Origin: Hyaloraphidium curvatum
Lineage: Eukaryota > Monoblepharomycota > Hyaloraphidiomycetes > Hyaloraphidiales > Hyaloraphidiaceae
NCBI GenBank assembly: GCA_025558095.1
Contig: JAIVFI010000003.1
Location: 1,054,001-1,118,000 of the forward strand
Direction of reading: 5' to 3'
DNA: 64,000 bases
The notes beneath the pieces were generated by a model, which saw only the letters and a list, made by a program, of their open reading frames with translations, was not told where the DNA came from and made no database searches. Of the stretch, positions 18,200 to 44,458 are shown piece after piece. Within the stretch, counting starts at the first letter, position 1. Each line of letters starts with the position of its first letter. The position numbers and the translations under genes are program-made.

Positions 18200-20485
18200 T
18201 CACACGAGCAAGGCCACCAGGAAGAGCAGGCCACCGATCCACGTCGATCCAGCAGCAACCAGCCTCCGTCCGCCTGACGGGAGCGGCTTCGGCGGGAAGT
18301 TGGTCCTCGCGTCCACGTCGTACACTGTCCCCGTGGTCACGTTGATCTCGCTGACCCGGGTCAGCGTACCGTCCACCTGGCGCTTGTAGACGTAGTTCGA
18401 ATCAAAGACGACGTTGCGGGTCGTGTTGGACTCGATGTAGCCCAGGAACTGGGCGTTGAACCCGTCGTCGACCCAGCGGTTCCCGCGCACCGTCACGTCC
18501 GATGCCACGCGGACCACGACCGACCCGCGGAACTTCCACTCGCCCACGTACCACGGCTCGGGCACCACCGGCAGGGGCAGCTGGTTCAGGATGGTGTTGT
18601 TCTGCACCAGCACCGCCTGCGCGGCCGAAACCTCGATCGCCGCCCGCGGCGTGTTGACGATCAAGTTGTCCCGGATGCTGACCCCCCTGTTGGGTGACAT
18701 CCCGCCGGGCCTCGCGCGGCCCGTGATCCGCTGCCGCTCCGCGATCCAGGGCAGGCTCATGACCTGGTAGCCCGAGGGCTCCTTGGCGTACACGCTCACG
18801 GCCGTCCCGTTGTACTCGCCGATGAGGTCCACGTCCCGGAACGTGTTCCGTGCGATGAGCACGTTTTCGGCCCCGCTACCTTCGCCCTCCTTCCCGTGCA
18901 CGCGGACGAGGATACCTCCCATTTGGATGTCATGGAACGACGAATCGAGGATGGCGACGTCGTTGCCCTGCACCAGGATCCCGCGGGCGCGGTTGTGGTG
19001 GCACGAGAGGTTGCGCACCACCAGCCTCGAGGCGTCGTAGTCGTTGTTGATCACCATCAGCTTGGACAGGTTGCGGCCCTGGAGGCTCTTGGCATCGAAG
19101 GTGCCGTCCTCGAAAACCAGCGTCCAGTTGCCGCACCCGTCGCCCCTGGCGCTGCGCACGACGCCCAGGCTGTCGCTGAGCAGGCTGTAGCTGGGCAGGC
19201 CGAGAAGCGACGTGCCGTCGCCGGGGAAGTAGTCGATGTACCTGTTCCCGCGGATGTAGACGGCGCTCGAGTTGACGAGCTCGATGCCCGGGGCGACGGG
19301 GATGCCCCCCGAGACGGGCGAGTTGAAGTTGACGCAGTCGTCGCCGTGGTGCGAGATCTCGCTGTTCTCGATCAGCACATTGCCCTTGGTCGAGTCGAAG
19401 AAGAGGCCGTCCGAGGAGCAAGTGATGTGCCGGGTAAGGTTGGTGGTCTGGTGGTCGCCCGGGCCGGGCGGGGCCATGACGAAGCGGTCGAAGTGGACGT
19501 TGGACACGCCGCGCCCAAAGACGAAGGCCTTGCCTGCACAGCCAAAGAGCCGGAAGTTGCGGAAGGTGAGGTGCGTCGACCTGAAGATCCACGCCGCGTG
19601 GAACTCGTAGGTGAAGTGCCTCAGAAGCATCCGGGAACCGATGTCGGGGGTCCGCGTGTTGGGCTTCTCAAAGTCCAGCCTGAAGGTCGTGGCGGTGAGC
19701 CGGGTGAACTCGGGGGCCTTGGCCTGATACACGTAGATCTCGGACCCGTTTATGTTGCCCATCGTGTTGGTCGTCGTGTTGACGGTGTGCACGGACTTGA
19801 ACGCAAAGGTGTCCCTGGGCGTTTCGATGCTGGGAACCTCGAGCATCTCGAGGGTCCACGACGAGTTGGTGGCGGCCAGCACGTTGACCAGGTTGGCGAG
19901 CCTGTAACGGCTCCAGTCCCAATCCATCGCGATATTGCGGACTTCGCAGCGGGTGCACCGGTCGATGCCCAAGTACGAGCCGTAGATGACGGCCGGGAAG
20001 CCAGGCTCGTAGTCCCGCGGGGTGCAGCTCTGCTCCGCGTAGTTGGGCCGCGGCATGAACTGCGGAGGCCGCGAAAAGACAAACGTCGAGTTCTGCCCGT
20101 CGAAGACGAAGTCCTTGAGGTCGACGATGTTGATGCTCCGGCCGTCGGTGCCACCTTCGACGCGGTAGACCCCGTTCGGCCGGGAGAAGGTGACCACGCA
20201 GCCGCCGGTCACGTTGTGGCACGCCTGAATGGCATTGTTGAGCGCCACCGTGATGTCCGGGTCGGAGGGAGACGCGCCAAAGTCCGTGTCGACGAGGCGG
20301 ACCGTCGGCCGGGAGAGCTGCGGCGAATCGATGGTGATGTCGAACCACGGCTCGGTGGCCGTGAGAGCGGGAAAAGTCAGGGATTGGGCCGCCGCCATAG
20401 AGGTGGAGGAGGCCAGGAAGGCGAGGTTTGCAGCGAGCGCTGCCAGCAGCGGGATCCGGCGCCGGGTGGAGCTCGGCCGCCGCAT
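18200..20485 (-). CDS. secreted, GPI-type right-handed beta-helix protein (GH110/pectate-lyase-like fold)
   Basis: 761 residues, single exon, from ATG at 20485; an upstream ATG at 20575 would put 30 odd residues before the signal peptide. Signal peptide: basic MRRPSSTRRR, then a hydrophobic core ending AAAQS. The body is a run of beta-helix turns with repeated N-x-(V/I) patterns: VLIENSEISHHGDDCVNFN, YIRGNRYIDYFPGDGTS, VAILDSSFHDIQMGGILV. HHGDDCVNF recalls the catalytic turn of GH110 alpha-galactosidases and related carbohydrate-active helices. Many N-glycosylation sequons are present. The C-terminus (STWIGGLLFLVALLV) is a short hydrophobic tail without basic residues, as in GPI signals. Likely a cell-wall or surface glycosidase; the exact activity is unknown. 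Confidence 0.75.
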   Translation of the reverse strand: MRRPSSTRRRIPLLAALAANLAFLASSTSMAAAQSLTFPALTATEPWFDITIDSPQLSRPTVRLVDTDFGASPSDPDITVALNNAIQACHNVTGGCVVTFSRPNGVYRVEGGTDGRSINIVDLKDFVFDGQNSTFVFSRPPQFMPRPNYAEQSCTPRDYEPGFPAVIYGSYLGIDRCTRCEVRNIAMDWDWSRYRLANLVNVLAATNSSWTLEMLEVPSIETPRDTFAFKSVHTVNTTTNTMGNINGSEIYVYQAKAPEFTRLTATTFRLDFEKPNTRTPDIGSRMLLRHFTYEFHAAWIFRSTHLTFRNFRLFGCAGKAFVFGRGVSNVHFDRFVMAPPGPGDHQTTNLTRHITCSSDGLFFDSTKGNVLIENSEISHHGDDCVNFNSPVSGGIPVAPGIELVNSSAVYIRGNRYIDYFPGDGTSLLGLPSYSLLSDSLGVVRSARGDGCGNWTLVFEDGTFDAKSLQGRNLSKLMVINNDYDASRLVVRNLSCHHNRARGILVQGNDVAILDSSFHDIQMGGILVRVHGKEGEGSGAENVLIARNTFRDVDLIGEYNGTAVSVYAKEPSGYQVMSLPWIAERQRITGRARPGGMSPNRGVSIRDNLIVNTPRAAIEVSAAQAVLVQNNTILNQLPLPVVPEPWYVGEWKFRGSVVVRVASDVTVRGNRWVDDGFNAQFLGYIESNTTRNVVFDSNYVYKRQVDGTLTRVSEINVTTGTVYDVDARTNFPPKPLPSGGRRLVAAGSTWIGGLLFLVALLV

Positions 20486-21012
20486 CGTGCGTTCGGGGGG
20501 TCCCGAAGGACAAAATGAGAGCGAAGGGAAAGTCGTGGAGACTAAACGAGAAGGTTGAAGAGGTGCTGAGGGCACCGACGAGAGAGTCCTGACGACGAGT
20601 CACAGAGCGCTGTGGCTGAGGTGCGGCGAAGGAAGAGGATCGGTGATTCCAAATCCCATCGCACACCATCGATTCTTGAAGAATCCGAGGCGCCATGCAT
20701 CCCTAGGGAATGCTACTTGAGTCTGCGATCGCCCGTCTGTTGTTTTGTGGTGGATGCGTGTGTGAAGTGTGCGAGTCAATCGAGATGAGTCGAAGTGGGC
20801 CAACCGCGGCCGCTTTCGCCGTCAATCCAGAGACTGGTGAATGAAGACTGACAATATCTGCAAAGCAGTTTGTTGCCGATGAGGACACTTCTGTGGCTTG
20901 GGGTTGGGTTGAATCATCCCGGGTTGAATCATCGGGCACGGTGTGCAGGGACGCTGCCGCTCGCGAGCCAAATCCAAGCGACACTCACTGCGAATCAGAC
21001 TCGAAGCCGAAC
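20486..21012. other. divergent intergenic region
   Basis: 527 bp between the beta-helix gene (minus) and the MYND gene (plus). A perfect 12-bp direct repeat (tcatc/ggttgaatcat type) is visible around 20914-20934. No gene seen. Confidence 0.35.
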
Positions 21013-25350: not shown

Positions 25351-27055
25351 ATGACGCGCCTCTCCGCTGCGCTCGGTCTCAGCACGCGCCTCGGCGCGCC
25401 CATGTGGGCGCCGCTGGCCCGCGGCTTCGCGTCGGCAAAGGCCGTGCCCATCACGGTTGCCCGCGGCGACGGTATCGGCCCCGAGATCATGGACGCCACC
25501 CTCCGCATCATCGAGAAGTCCGGCGCGAATCTCGACATCGAGGAAATCGTCATCGGCGAGAAGGCCTACGCCGCCGGCCACATGTCCGGCGTCGCCCCCG
25601 AGGCCCTCGACTCGCTGCGCCGCACGAAGGTGTTCCTCAAGGCGCCGATCACCACGCCGCAGGGCGGCGGCTTCAAGTCGCTTAACGTCACCGTGCGCAA
25701 GTCGTTCGGTCTCTACGCCAACATCCGGCCGTGCGTCAGCTACGACCCCTTCATCCGGACCAAGCACCCCAAGATGGACGTCCACATCATCCGCGAGAAC
25801 GAGGAGGACCTGTACGCCGGCATTGTGGGCCTTACCTAGCCGCCCTCCGCCGAGCTCGTCTGACGCCGCGCCGATTTACAGGAGCACCAGCAGACCGACG
25901 AGGTCGTCCAGTGCCTCAAGCTCATCACCCGGCCCGGCTCTGAGCGGATTGTCCGCTACGCCTTCGAGTACGCCCGCGCCAACGGCCGCAAGAAGGTCAC
26001 CGCCTTCACCAAGGACAACATCATGAAGCTCACTGGTGAGTTGTGATCTCCCGCCCTGCTGATCACGACTGATCATTGATGCCCTCTCCCCGCAGATGGC
26101 CGTCAGTACCTCGTTCCTTGCGGAAGATGTTTTGCGGTGATTTCTGATCCTTCTCGTGCCCTCCTTCCCAGTGTTCCACCGCATCTTCGACGAGGTCGGC
26201 GCCGAGTACCCTGATCTCGAGAAGGAGCACTGGATCGTCGACATCGGTGCCGCCAAGCTGGCCGACACCCCCGAGGCATTTGACGTCATTGTCCTCCCCA
26301 ACCTGTACGGCGACATCCTGTCGGACGTCGCGGCCCAGATCGCCGGCTCCGTCGGCCTTGCCGGTTCCAGCAACATCGGCCAGGACATTGCCATGTTCGA
26401 GGCCATCCACGGCTCGGCGCCCCGCCGCGCTGGCCAGGACCTCGCAAACCCCTCGGGCCTGTTCCTGGGCGCCGTCCAGATGCTGGTCCACATCGGCCAG
26501 GGCGACATCGCCGCGAAGGCGCACAACGCCTGGCTCAAGACCATCGAGGACGGCGTGCACACCTACGACATCTACAAGGAGGGCAAGTCGACCAAAAAGG
26601 TCGGCACCAAGGCGTTTGCGGACGCCGTGATCGAGCGCCTCGGGGAGACCCCCAAGGTCCTCAAGCCCGTATCCTACAAGGCCGGCACCACCATCGAGGT
26701 CAAGCTGTCGCAGCCCAAGCCCGCGACCAAGACCCGCGTCGGTGTTGACATCTTCGTCGGGCACCACGAGAAGCCCGACGACCTCGCCAAGCGGCTCCTC
26801 CCGCACGTGGGCGACAAGTTCAAGCTCGACATGCTCTCCAACCGCGGCCAGAAGGTCTGGCCCGACGGCGCCCCCGAGACCTTCATCGTCGACCACATGC
26901 GCTGCCGCTTCCTGGCCAAGGGGCCCGAGGTGTCGGCCAAGGACGTCGTGGAGCTCGAGATGCGCCTGGCCAACGCCGGGTTCGACCTGCTCAAGACGGA
27001 GGGACTCTTCAACTTCGACGGGAAGCCCGGGTACACCAAGGGCCAGGGCCAGTAA
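25351..27055 (+). CDS. mitochondrial isocitrate dehydrogenase with bacterial-type C-terminal domain
   Basis: Oxidative decarboxylation of isocitrate to 2-oxoglutarate. About 505 residues, four exons: 25351..25824, 25882..26035, 26096..26101 (6 nt) and 26172..27055. Residues 1-30 (MTRLSAALGLSTRLGAPMW, then ARGFASAK) look like a mitochondrial presequence. The core has VARGDGIGPEIM, RENEEDLYAGI, TDGLFHRIFDEV, LPNLYGDILSDVAAQIAGS and EAIHGSAPRRAGQ. From about residue 360 a domain of some 140 residues follows (VGVDIFVGHHEKPDDLAKR, LEMRLANAGFDLLKTEGLF), as in the Thermus/alphaproteobacterial IDH group and unlike fungal NAD-IDH subunits or NADP-IDH. Cofactor preference is not determined here. Its 3' end abuts the convergent hydrolase gene. 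Confidence 0.92.
26096..26101 (+). other. 6-nt microexon of the isocitrate dehydrogenase gene
   Basis: Exon ATGGCC, flanked by ccccgcag and gtcagt. It supplies the end of Asp, Gly and the first base of Leu, making TDGLFHRIF, the sequence expected in this enzyme family. Without it the flanking exons do not join in frame. Confidence 0.85.
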
Positions 27056-40902: not shown

Positions 40903-41858
40903 ATGACGATCGAAGTCCTGGGCGGCGGCATCCACCGCACCGGCACCGTCTCCCTCCGCGAGGCCCTGAACATCCTGGGCTACAAGTGCCTAGTAGGCAC
41001 TTCGCATGGTGCGAGTGCAAGTCGTGCCGATCCCCCCGCACGTGGGACGACGGGCAGCCGGCCTCGCCGTCGCCGCTGGATGCCATCAGGCAGAAGGGCG
41101 AGGTGCACGCTCGTACCAAGTGCTACCACTCCTTCGACTCGTTCCCCCACACGCCGGAAATTCTCCCCGTGACGTCCGGGTGGGCTCGCGCCCGGAACGC
41201 TGCCCCGCGAGCCGTCCTTGACGCCCTGCAGGGCCACCTTCCCCCTCGGGAACAAATTCATGTGGGACCTGGGGCTCGGCCGGTGGAACAACGATCTGCG
41301 GCCGGCGTGCGACGCGTTCTTCGGCCCCGGCGGGTACGACGCCGCCGTGGACCAGTGCTGGGCCTATCCCGAGCTCCGCCGCGCGTACCCGGATGCGAAG
41401 GTGATCCTGACCGTCCGCGATCCCGAGGAGTGGTATCGCAGCTACATGACCAACCTCGTGGCCTTTGATGCCTGCGCGATGATCGCCGACCTCGATGCGG
41501 GGGGCCATTTGGGGAACGGGGTGTCGCCCTTCCATCCCGGGGCAATGGGTGTGATGAGGATCCTCGGGAGCGATTACCGCAAGGTGGTATCGCCGTGCGA
41601 TGGGAATCCCCTCGCCTGACACGTACCTGGGCCGCCTAGGAGCGGGCGATCCAGATCTTCAACGAGTGGAACGAGGCCATCAAGGCCGAGGTGCCCTCAG
41701 AGAAGCTCCTCGTCTTGGACGTCCGGCAGGGCTGGGAACCCCTCTGTCGGTTCCTAATTCGGATCGGCTCCCTTATGTTTGGTTGGAACGTGGGTTCGGC
41801 TGGGAGACGGTGTCAGCGCGGGAACCGCGCCTCGCGACGTATTCAGGATTCGGAGTAG
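40903..41858 (+). CDS. P-loop sulfotransferase-like protein (Sulfotransferase_4 type)
   Basis: About 217 residues, three exons: 40903..40985, 41232..41583 and 41640..41858. The N-terminus IEVLGGGIHRTGTVSLREAL is the PAPS- or nucleotide-binding loop. Exon 2 gives ATFPLGNKFMWDLGLGRWNN, DQCWAYPELRRAYPDAKVIL and TVRDPEEWYRSYMTN; exon 3 gives IQIFNEWNEAIKAEVPSEK, LLVLDVRQGWEPLCRFL. These are the motifs of the widespread family PF17784, in which few members have a proven activity. The 246-bp first intron (donor inside the Lys codon of GYK) is inferred from phase; another exon inside it cannot be excluded. The last 25 residues after CRFL do not match the family, so a further intron or decay may affect the end. 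Confidence 0.7.
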
Positions 41859-41962: not shown

Positions 41963-44458
41963 CTAAACCAACACCGCGAAAGCGGCCGCGGCGGCCCCGA
42001 TCACGGCCCCCACCGCCCCCGTGCCGAGGCGTCCGGCGGACGCGGGCTTGCTGGTCGAAACGGTGGCCGTGGCGGTGGCGGTCGGCGCAACCGTGGACGT
42101 GGTCGGGCTGCCCAGGGACTTGCACGCTGCGGCCGCAGACGGTCACGATCGCGGACGGGGTCACGGATCGTGCGGCACCCACTGAACTGCACCGAGTCCT
42201 CGACGTGGTGGAGCGGGAAGCCGGTGCAGAAGCCCAGGGTCGAGATCGTGGTGACGTTGGAGACGGCGGCGGAGCACTTGGAATCCGTGTAGAAAGCGAC
42301 AGTGCGGGCGGTGCAGTCTCCCTTGGCTGCAATCGGGGATTAGGAGCTGAGCATCCGTGCGTTGTCGTCCGCGATACTGGAACCCACCGTAAAAGGTCCC
42401 GGGCAGATCGGGATCCTCCAGCGCGACACAGCCTCCCGAAGGCACGGCGAGGATGTGCTCCACGGTTCCCGGGTGGCAACCCACGTCGCCGTACACGGTG
42501 CCGACGGCCCACTGCCCCGACGCCGAGGGCGGAACCACGAGCTCGAGCCTTTCGGTGCACGTGGAGATGTACGAGTGGCCGTCGGCGTCGGTCTCGCAGA
42601 CGGAGGGGTCCTCCTTCGCGTGCTCGGCGCAGGTGGTGGCGTTGCCGGCGTCGGTCATTTCCGAGACGAAGATGACTGCGGCGGGCGATGGGTCAGTGGA
42701 TGGGACAGTGCGGGCGAGGAGCGCGCACATTCAACAGCTCCCTGGTGAAACAGAAGGCGGCGATCAGTGAGACACTTCAAAAAGACAGGTCGTGCGCACG
42801 CACCGTGCAGTTCTTCCCGGCAAAGTAGGCCGACGACTCGTGCAGGGTCGGCGCGAGCTCCCGGCACACTGCGCTGCGTTAGGTCCCCGAAGGACTCATC
42901 GACTTGCGACGGCACCCACCGAACCTGATCGCGTCGTCCGAGTGGAAGAGCGGGAAGCCCGTGCAGACGTCGGTGGTCGGGACCGCAGAGACGTTGCCGA
43001 CGGGCACGGTGCAGGCGGAGTTGGTGAACACGGCGACGGTCCCAGCGGCGCAGTCGGCCTTGGCTGCGGGATCTTAAGCTTTTGCCCGCAATGAGCCTGC
43101 GCCGCAGGATACCCACCGTAGAACCCGTTGGCCGCGATGCTGTTGTCCCCGAGCGCGGTGCACGCCCCGCTCGGCAGCGCCATCACCTGCTCCGCCCCGC
43201 CCTCGGGGCAGGAGCGTCCCTCGTACAGCGTGCCGACGGCGAACTGCCCAGAGGCCCCCGCGGGGACGACCAGCTCGAGGTCCTGGGTGCAGGTGGTGCG
43301 GGAGCTGTGGCCGTCGGCGTCGGGTTCGCAGGTCGAGGGGTGGACCGTGTCGTGCTCGGCGCAGGTGGTGGCGTTGCCCCCGTCGGTCATGGCGTTGACG
43401 TAGATCACTGCGGGTGGAGTATTGGATCAGATCAACCCAGCTGCGTGCGTCAGGTGACAGCTGCAAAGCCCACGTTCGATATTGCCCTGATTAGTACAAG
43501 GGCGGAGCGGGGTCAGATCTTCCGGCCGAGCAATTGCAAAGAACGATCTATACCGTGCAGTTCTTGCCGTTGTAGAACACCGTGTTCTCGTAGAGCTTGG
43601 CCCCTAGGGTCCTGCACTCTTTTTGCGGTCGCGGGTCAGCTCAGTCCGCGCTCGCCACCGCTTCGTCGTCTCACCAAACTGGATCGAGTCGTTGGCGTGC
43701 ACCAGGGGGAAGGGGGCGCAGGTCCCGTTGGCGGCCAGCGTGGTGATGTTGCCCGTGGGCTTGGTGCAAGCGGCGTCGGTGTAGAAGGCGATGGATTCGG
43801 AAGCGCAGTTGGCCCTCGCTGCCGCGGAGAAGGTGGGCTTGGTTGGAGACGGAAGCTTCAAAGCCGGTTTGGCCCACCATAGAAGTTGCCCTCGGCCGTG
43901 GCACCCTCGAGCGCGGTGCACGCTCCGGCGGGCAGCGCGTGGATTTCCTCCGCGGTCCCATCCCCGCAACCCGGCCCATCAAACAGCGTGCCGACCATGA
44001 ACTCGGCCGCGTATCCCTTGGGGAGCACGGGCTGGAGGCTGTCAGTGCAGCTGACGAAGACCGAGTGGCCGTCAGCGTCGGCCGCGCACTTTGGGACGTG
44101 CACGGCTTCGTGTTCGGCGCAGGTGGTGGCGTTGCCGGCGTCGGTCATGGCGCCGACGACGAGGTCTGGCGAGGGGAGGAGTGGCGTGAGTCAGGGAGGA
44201 CGAAGAACGGGTGGCCGTCCCACATTCGACGGGGCCCTGGCGACGGCGAGGTCACCGACATCGAGTTTTGACGGGCGTCGTGCGAGGACGACGGGAGGAA
44301 AGTCGGTCAGTGCAGTCCGCGGTCCCGCGAGGGACGCGCACCGAGCAGTCCTTGGACGCGAAAAACGCCGAGCTCTCGTAAAGCTCGGCATCGGCGCCGC
44401 GTGCGGCAGCAAGAAACGCGAGGGCGAACAGCGCAACGGCAGCGGGAAGGCGCGGCAT
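41963..44458 (-). CDS. secreted, GPI-type protein of three cysteine-rich modules (unrecognised family)
   Basis: About 582 residues, 13 exons on the minus strand: 44458..44342, 44236..44224, 44165..43878, 43818..43675, 43618..43554, 43486..43474, 43407..43117, 43063..42920, 42868..42804, 42741..42729, 42675..42388, 42326..42183 and 42126..41963; every join keeps frame. Signal peptide: PRLPAAVALFALAFLAAARG. Three modules of about 175 residues follow, each with 10 Cys at matching places. Shared motifs: L(Y/H)E(S/N)(S/T)(A/V)(F/Y)F with K(D/N)C(S/T); MTD(A/G)GNATTCAEH; DADGHS; FYxxxxC; C-x5-FPL-x-H. The C-terminus is a Thr/Ser-rich stalk, then AGRLGTGAVGAVIGAAAAFA and a hydrophobic end, as in GPI signals. 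Several N-x-S/T sites. A cell-surface or wall protein; I do not recognise the family. Confidence 0.8.
42183..44458 (-). repeat. three tandem intragenic modules with identical exon plan
   Basis: Each module is four exons in the same order and phase: a short 5' exon (65 nt in modules 2 and 3; module 1 is fused to the signal peptide), a 13-nt microexon, a 288-291-nt exon and a 144-nt exon. Microexons at 44224-44236, 43474-43486 and 42729-42741 encode G-P-V-E, G-N-I-E and G-A-V-E plus one base. Introns have diverged while exon lengths are kept, so the duplications are old and under coding constraint. Confidence 0.85.

Follow-up and report, generated by a model that had tools for sequence, protein, structure and literature searches.

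The window (the whole stretch of 64,000 nucleotides that was analysed) contains an intact gene for a predicted surface protein of three modules, each with ten cysteines and each homologous to a single module copy in paralogues elsewhere in the same genome. These paralogues are of two types, one ending in a GPI-type tail and the other continuing into a transmembrane helix and a protein kinase. Because single copies cap transmembrane kinases in the same genome, the module is, on sequence evidence, the ectodomain of receptor kinases. We lean towards the reading that it is the ligand-binding ectodomain of a lineage-expanded receptor system, of which the window protein would be a GPI-anchored co-receptor or decoy.

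Structure of the window gene

Direct reading of the minus strand gave an intact gene at 44458..41963 with 13 exons and 12 introns, whose open frame encodes 582 residues and ends in a stop codon. All 12 introns run from GT to AG and measure 51–105 nt, and their phases (0,1,1,1) are repeated in all three modules. The exon lengths (65, 13, 288–291 and 144 nt) recur in the same manner; exon a of module 1 differs in length because the signal peptide sits on exon 1. The protein comprises a signal peptide, three modules of ~170 residues, a Thr/Ser-rich stalk and a GPI-type tail, with the signal peptide, the stalk and the hydrophobic C-terminal tail all recognisable in its sequence. It carries ten N-glycosylation sequons and 30 cysteines, exactly ten per module, which probably form five disulfides in each. 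The exon that opens the following module encodes the tenth cysteine of the one before; for module 3, the tail exon does so. The original prediction had described this three-module, ten-cysteine layout correctly; its 13 in-frame exon joins are indeed in frame, their number being 12.

Exon 1 (44342..44458, minus strand as all that follow; module 1a) was read directly and holds the start codon, the signal peptide MPRLPAAVALFALAFLAAARGADA, the start of module 1 and its first cysteine. It is followed by exon 2 (44224..44236), a 13-nt microexon encoding GPVE(Y), which the frame needs and whose residues match the paralogues. Exon 3 (43878..44165, module 1b) contains MTDAGNATTCAEH, DADGHS and five cysteines, and exon 4 (43675..43818, module 1c) includes FYTDAAC and FPLVH. 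The second module is encoded by exon 5 (43554..43618, module 2a), whose first cysteine is the last of module 1, the 13-nt microexon 6 (43474..43486), exon 7 (43117..43407, module 2b) and exon 8 (42920..43063, module 2c). The third is encoded by exon 9 (42804..42868, module 3a), whose first cysteine is the last of module 2, the 13-nt microexon 10 (42729..42741), exon 11 (42388..42675, module 3b) and exon 12 (42183..42326, module 3c). Exon 13 (41963..42126) supplies the last cysteine, the Thr/Ser stalk, an S-K-P-A-S-A-G-R motif common to the paralogues, the hydrophobic GPI-type tail and the stop codon.

The 13-nt microexon is needed in each module to close the frame. A gene frame lacking the microexons was rejected, as the GT donors in phase 0 cannot be joined to the acceptors in phase 1. 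The microexons are independently supported because single-module paralogues encode the same residues, either in a 12-nt microexon (C38, C13 and C12) or fused to the next exon. Across the family, microexons of 12–13 nt are conserved, and their 5' side shifts between phase 0 and phase 1.

The three modules share 48–54% residue identity and retain all cysteines, together with blocks such as MTD(A/G)GNATTCAEH. At the DNA level, the repetition appears as evenly spaced blocks of 192 and 158 nt with 66–76% identity, far beyond chance, and the exon-b copies are also 66–76% identical. Simple counting gave dN values of 0.38–0.47 and dS values of 0.57–0.72 between the modules, and the substitutions were moderately conservative. 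The resulting dN/dS of ~0.5–0.7, a rough estimate in a GC-rich genome, is high for a constrained domain, and the surface residues of the module may therefore be evolving fast.

Searches of known domains indicate that the module is an uncatalogued domain absent from Pfam, in agreement with the original prediction of an unrecognised family. For the whole window protein and ten family members, no Pfam-A match came near its cut-off; the PDB yielded no relative, whether searched by sequence or by profile, and a scan of prokaryote genomes with the exon-b alignment detected none either. Conservation in the alignment of ten family members was nowhere high enough for such a scan. Pfam matches of the family to CxC3 and DUF6412 were sub-threshold, and a hit of the profile on ribosomal L30 in the PDB (E 0.7) was attributed to chance. 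An AlphaFold2 model of exon b alone, which is a contiguous piece of the window and not the spliced module, had a pLDDT of 37.6 and a pTM of 0.23, values too low for the model to be of use.

Other coding stretches were observed in the window. A sulfotransferase exon (PF17784, E 4.8e-13) lies at 41173–41616 on the plus strand, just downstream of the gene and on the opposite strand to it. At 26141–27052 (plus strand), an isocitrate dehydrogenase whose C-terminal domain is of bacterial type (PF18324, E 6.5e-35) and whose closest match in the PDB is 2d1c is a possible case of horizontal transfer into a fungal genome. The minus strand at 18203–20599 holds an open frame of 799 amino acids with a right-handed beta-helix match (PF13229), possibly a surface or secreted protein.

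The module family and its kinase-bearing members

The search for paralogues covered the window's own genome (32 Mb in 55 contigs). The host is a fungus, since more than 70 matches to Fungal_trans (PF04082) and chitin synthase at three loci were identified; the earlier description of a flagellate fungus is thus upheld as to the fungus, while flagellate is not established, with only three dynein heavy-chain loci. Paralogues were modelled with a purpose-written, intron-aware protein-to-genome aligner that was checked on the window gene, and their exon joins are computed and partly guided by other family members. At least a dozen dispersed genes carry one copy of the module. They are located on C40 (a tandem pair), C38, C13, C12, C2, C32, C19, C4 and C25 and in a cluster on C30, so that paralogues with other module numbers, as envisaged in the original prediction, are present. 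The uncertain fragments C5:172819 and C27:205130/C50:5209 were excluded from the family set. Letter-identical stretches on C48 point to a duplication that is either very recent or a product of the assembly.

Family members have a predicted secretion signal and a predicted GPI or transmembrane attachment, as judged by hydropathy and by reading the sequences. A kinase is lacking in most members found in the genome, and most single-module proteins have at their C-terminus a stalk and a GPI-type tail, together with an S[KR]P(A/S)xAGR-like motif that they have in common. The 16 ectodomains can be aligned in all ten cysteine columns, each column being occupied in 14–16 of the 16 sequences. A profile built without the window gene scored the window modules at 54–71 bits, whereas none of 2100 shuffles with the cysteines left in place scored above 17 bits. 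The MTD(A/G)GNATTCAEH and DADGHS blocks are not conserved outside the window modules, and the paralogues keep only the cysteines and a few glycine and hydrophobic positions. Profile–profile comparison linked the window modules to the single-module genes (E 6e-18), and these to the kinase-type ectodomains of C30 and C25 (E 1.6e-11). As the direct comparison of the window modules with the C30/C25 ectodomains alone was weak (E 7e-4 to 7e-3), the link between them runs via the single-module genes and C40.

Three genes, at C30:58 kb, C30:52 kb and C25:126 kb, encode the module followed by a transmembrane helix and a complete PF07714 kinase. The helix has the sequence GAIVGGVIGGIAAVAAIAGLLFWLRRR and leads into a juxtamembrane stretch and the kinase. 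In the computed models of C30:58 kb and C25, the ectodomain, membrane helix and full kinase are connected with canonical introns, and a single uninterrupted exon of 858–897 nt encodes the last cysteine, the stalk, the helix, the juxtamembrane stretch and the kinase N-lobe. The kinases of these two genes match PF07714 with E-values of 1.8e-49 and 1.1e-45, and C30d shows the same layout of ectodomain, helix and kinase. The GxGxFGxVY, VAVK, HGD(I/L)KxxN, DFG and APE motifs are present in the C30/C25 kinases, and we take the lysine in HGDIK to suggest Ser/Thr and not Tyr specificity. The C25 ectodomain has an eleventh cysteine, in an insertion between conserved cysteines 4 and 5. The receptor-type kinase domain matched 195 exon stretches in the genome at E<=1e-6, a large TKL-like expansion in which most kinases are without a detected ten-cysteine ectodomain.

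Kinase-type and GPI-type genes can have nearly the same ectodomain, the identity being 96% in the C30 pair and 89% in the C40 pair. The two pairs fall into separate clades of the ectodomain tree, and anchorage therefore seems to have swapped between kinase and GPI at least twice. The tree places the window modules in one group with the C40 pair, at modest support (0.79). The kinase-type gene nearest to them is C40b (C40:424.1–426.4 kb, minus strand), which also has the layout of ectodomain, helix and kinase; its kinase looks intact and its ectodomain frame is broken, with no in-frame start found. Given this broken frame, it was treated as a damaged copy and kept out of the main evidence. The other gene of the tandem, C40a, is of the GPI type and intact, and the cluster at C30:48–70 kb has at least four family members, both kinase-type and GPI-type. 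A membrane helix and a kinase are both present in C30a, C30d and C25; the window gene has neither and ends in the GPI-type tail instead.

Readings of the window protein

In the favoured reading, the module would be an extracellular ligand-binding domain of a receptor system that expanded in the lineage of this fungus, with some copies carried on single-pass receptor-like protein kinases and others on kinase-less GPI anchors. Tandem duplications of a four-exon module would have given rise to the window gene, with its three ten-cysteine domains and glycosylated stalk. Having three modules would most likely raise the avidity for an extracellular ligand, and the protein would then either present the ligand to a kinase-bearing relative as a co-receptor or sequester it as a decoy. 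The gene structure, the homology of the modules and the two types of paralogue are shown by the sequences; surface display, the disulfides, ligand binding and the co-receptor or decoy role are what we infer for this protein. For that role, the models are GFR-alpha/RET of animals and LYM or CEBiP/CERK1 of plants.

The main rival reading makes the window protein an adhesin or a structural wall protein, in which the module has been co-opted to stick to wall, substrate, host or prey; repetition would then provide avidity, and signalling would be confined to the kinase-bearing paralogues. Such a role would leave the same anatomy, as modules in tandem, numerous sequons, a Thr/Ser stalk and a GPI-type tail are all in keeping with wall proteins of fungi, and the kinase-less majority of the family fits it as well. 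However, the module tops receptor kinases, and ligand recognition is more expected of near-identical ectodomains that occur with and without a kinase. We consider this role unlikely, though by no means negligible. The functions suggested originally (adhesion, wall building, and host or prey contact) were too narrow, as the kinase-bearing paralogues point to signal reception.

A catalytic or inhibitory role for the module, for instance as a protease inhibitor or a surface-tethered secreted enzyme, is improbable. The conservation of MTD(A/G)GNATTCAEH and DADGHS among the window modules would suit such a domain, as would a sub-threshold Kazal_2 match (E 0.07–0.23), but the blocks are not kept in the paralogues, which therefore share no candidate catalytic set, and the Kazal_2 match was rejected at 12.1 bits, far under the cut-off of 22.8. 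Models computed without transcripts could be suspected of having fused adjacent genes, in which case the link to the kinase would be spurious and the family would consist of secreted Cys-rich proteins. This is very improbable and already largely refuted by the exon spanning the last cysteine to the kinase N-lobe at two unlinked loci and by a third locus with the same layout.

Comparison with known receptor systems

The Cys-rich modules of GFR-alpha carry about ten cysteines each and have a helical-bundle fold. GFR-alpha shares with the predicted window protein a GPI anchor and three Cys-rich modules. It acts as a GPI-anchored co-receptor next to a receptor that bears a kinase (PMC7529620, PMC10661694), as the window protein would in the favoured reading. 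It differs in its domain, as PF02351 (GDNF/GAS1) was not among the Pfam matches to the window protein up to E 10, a range in which the search filters drop most matches above 0.1. The ectodomain of RET differs from the GFR-alpha module, whereas here the module itself also caps kinases, and the C30/C25 kinases are TKL/Ser-Thr-like and not RET-like. In the plant LYM/CEBiP systems, one module, LysM, occurs both on GPI-anchored three-module proteins and on single-pass receptor-like kinases (PMC6207691, PMC13402948). Unlike these, the present family is fungal and has a ten-cysteine module, and no LysM domain was matched by Pfam in the window protein and ten family members. The kinases here are classed by PF07714 match and kinase motifs, not as plant RLK/Pelle type. 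The best reading is that the window protein may work like the GFR-alpha/RET and LysM systems while belonging to neither family.

EhTMK ectodomains are Cys-rich, and we know of no GPI-anchored three-module partner for them. Compared by description, these Entamoeba transmembrane kinases likewise form an expanded microbial family whose members cross the membrane once and have an extracellular domain, in a different organism group (PMC2880585). FslK, a fungal tyrosine-kinase-related lineage of Chytridiomycota and Agaricomycetes, also represents PF07714-type kinases outside animals; it is described as almost always without further domains, and the description, on which the comparison with the kinases here is based, includes no receptor layout (PMC3937382). 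CFEM and WSC modules are similar in being Cys-rich and placed on GPI-anchored or single-pass fungal surface proteins. However, CFEM has eight cysteines and the module here ten; the CFEM profile matched neither the window protein nor ten family members, and the WSC profile matched none of these or the kinase-type genes.

Kiss et al., who surveyed 72 genomes, reported that fungi lack receptor-kinase architectures (PMC6733946), LRR receptor kinases are reported absent from fungi (PMC2939053), and TKL expansion among fungi has been reported only in Laccaria (PMC2838846). When 5.39 million open-access papers were searched by phrase for receptor kinases of fungi (subscription papers and preprints lay outside this scope), only PMC6733946 was retrieved. 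We regard it as evenly balanced whether this fungus possesses a complete receptor-kinase system in the style of plants or animals, with a ten-cysteine ectodomain on TKL-type kinases, matched GPI partners and the window protein as co-receptor or decoy.

Receptor kinases are a main route for sensing extracellular cues in plants and animals. The genome analysed here encodes intact-looking receptor-kinase proteins with an ectodomain absent from Pfam, together with kinase-less GPI partners. If the favoured reading is true, it would raise the question of whether the common ancestor of the fungi had such receptors or whether they are of new origin, and it would provide a concrete family to look for in early-diverging fungi.
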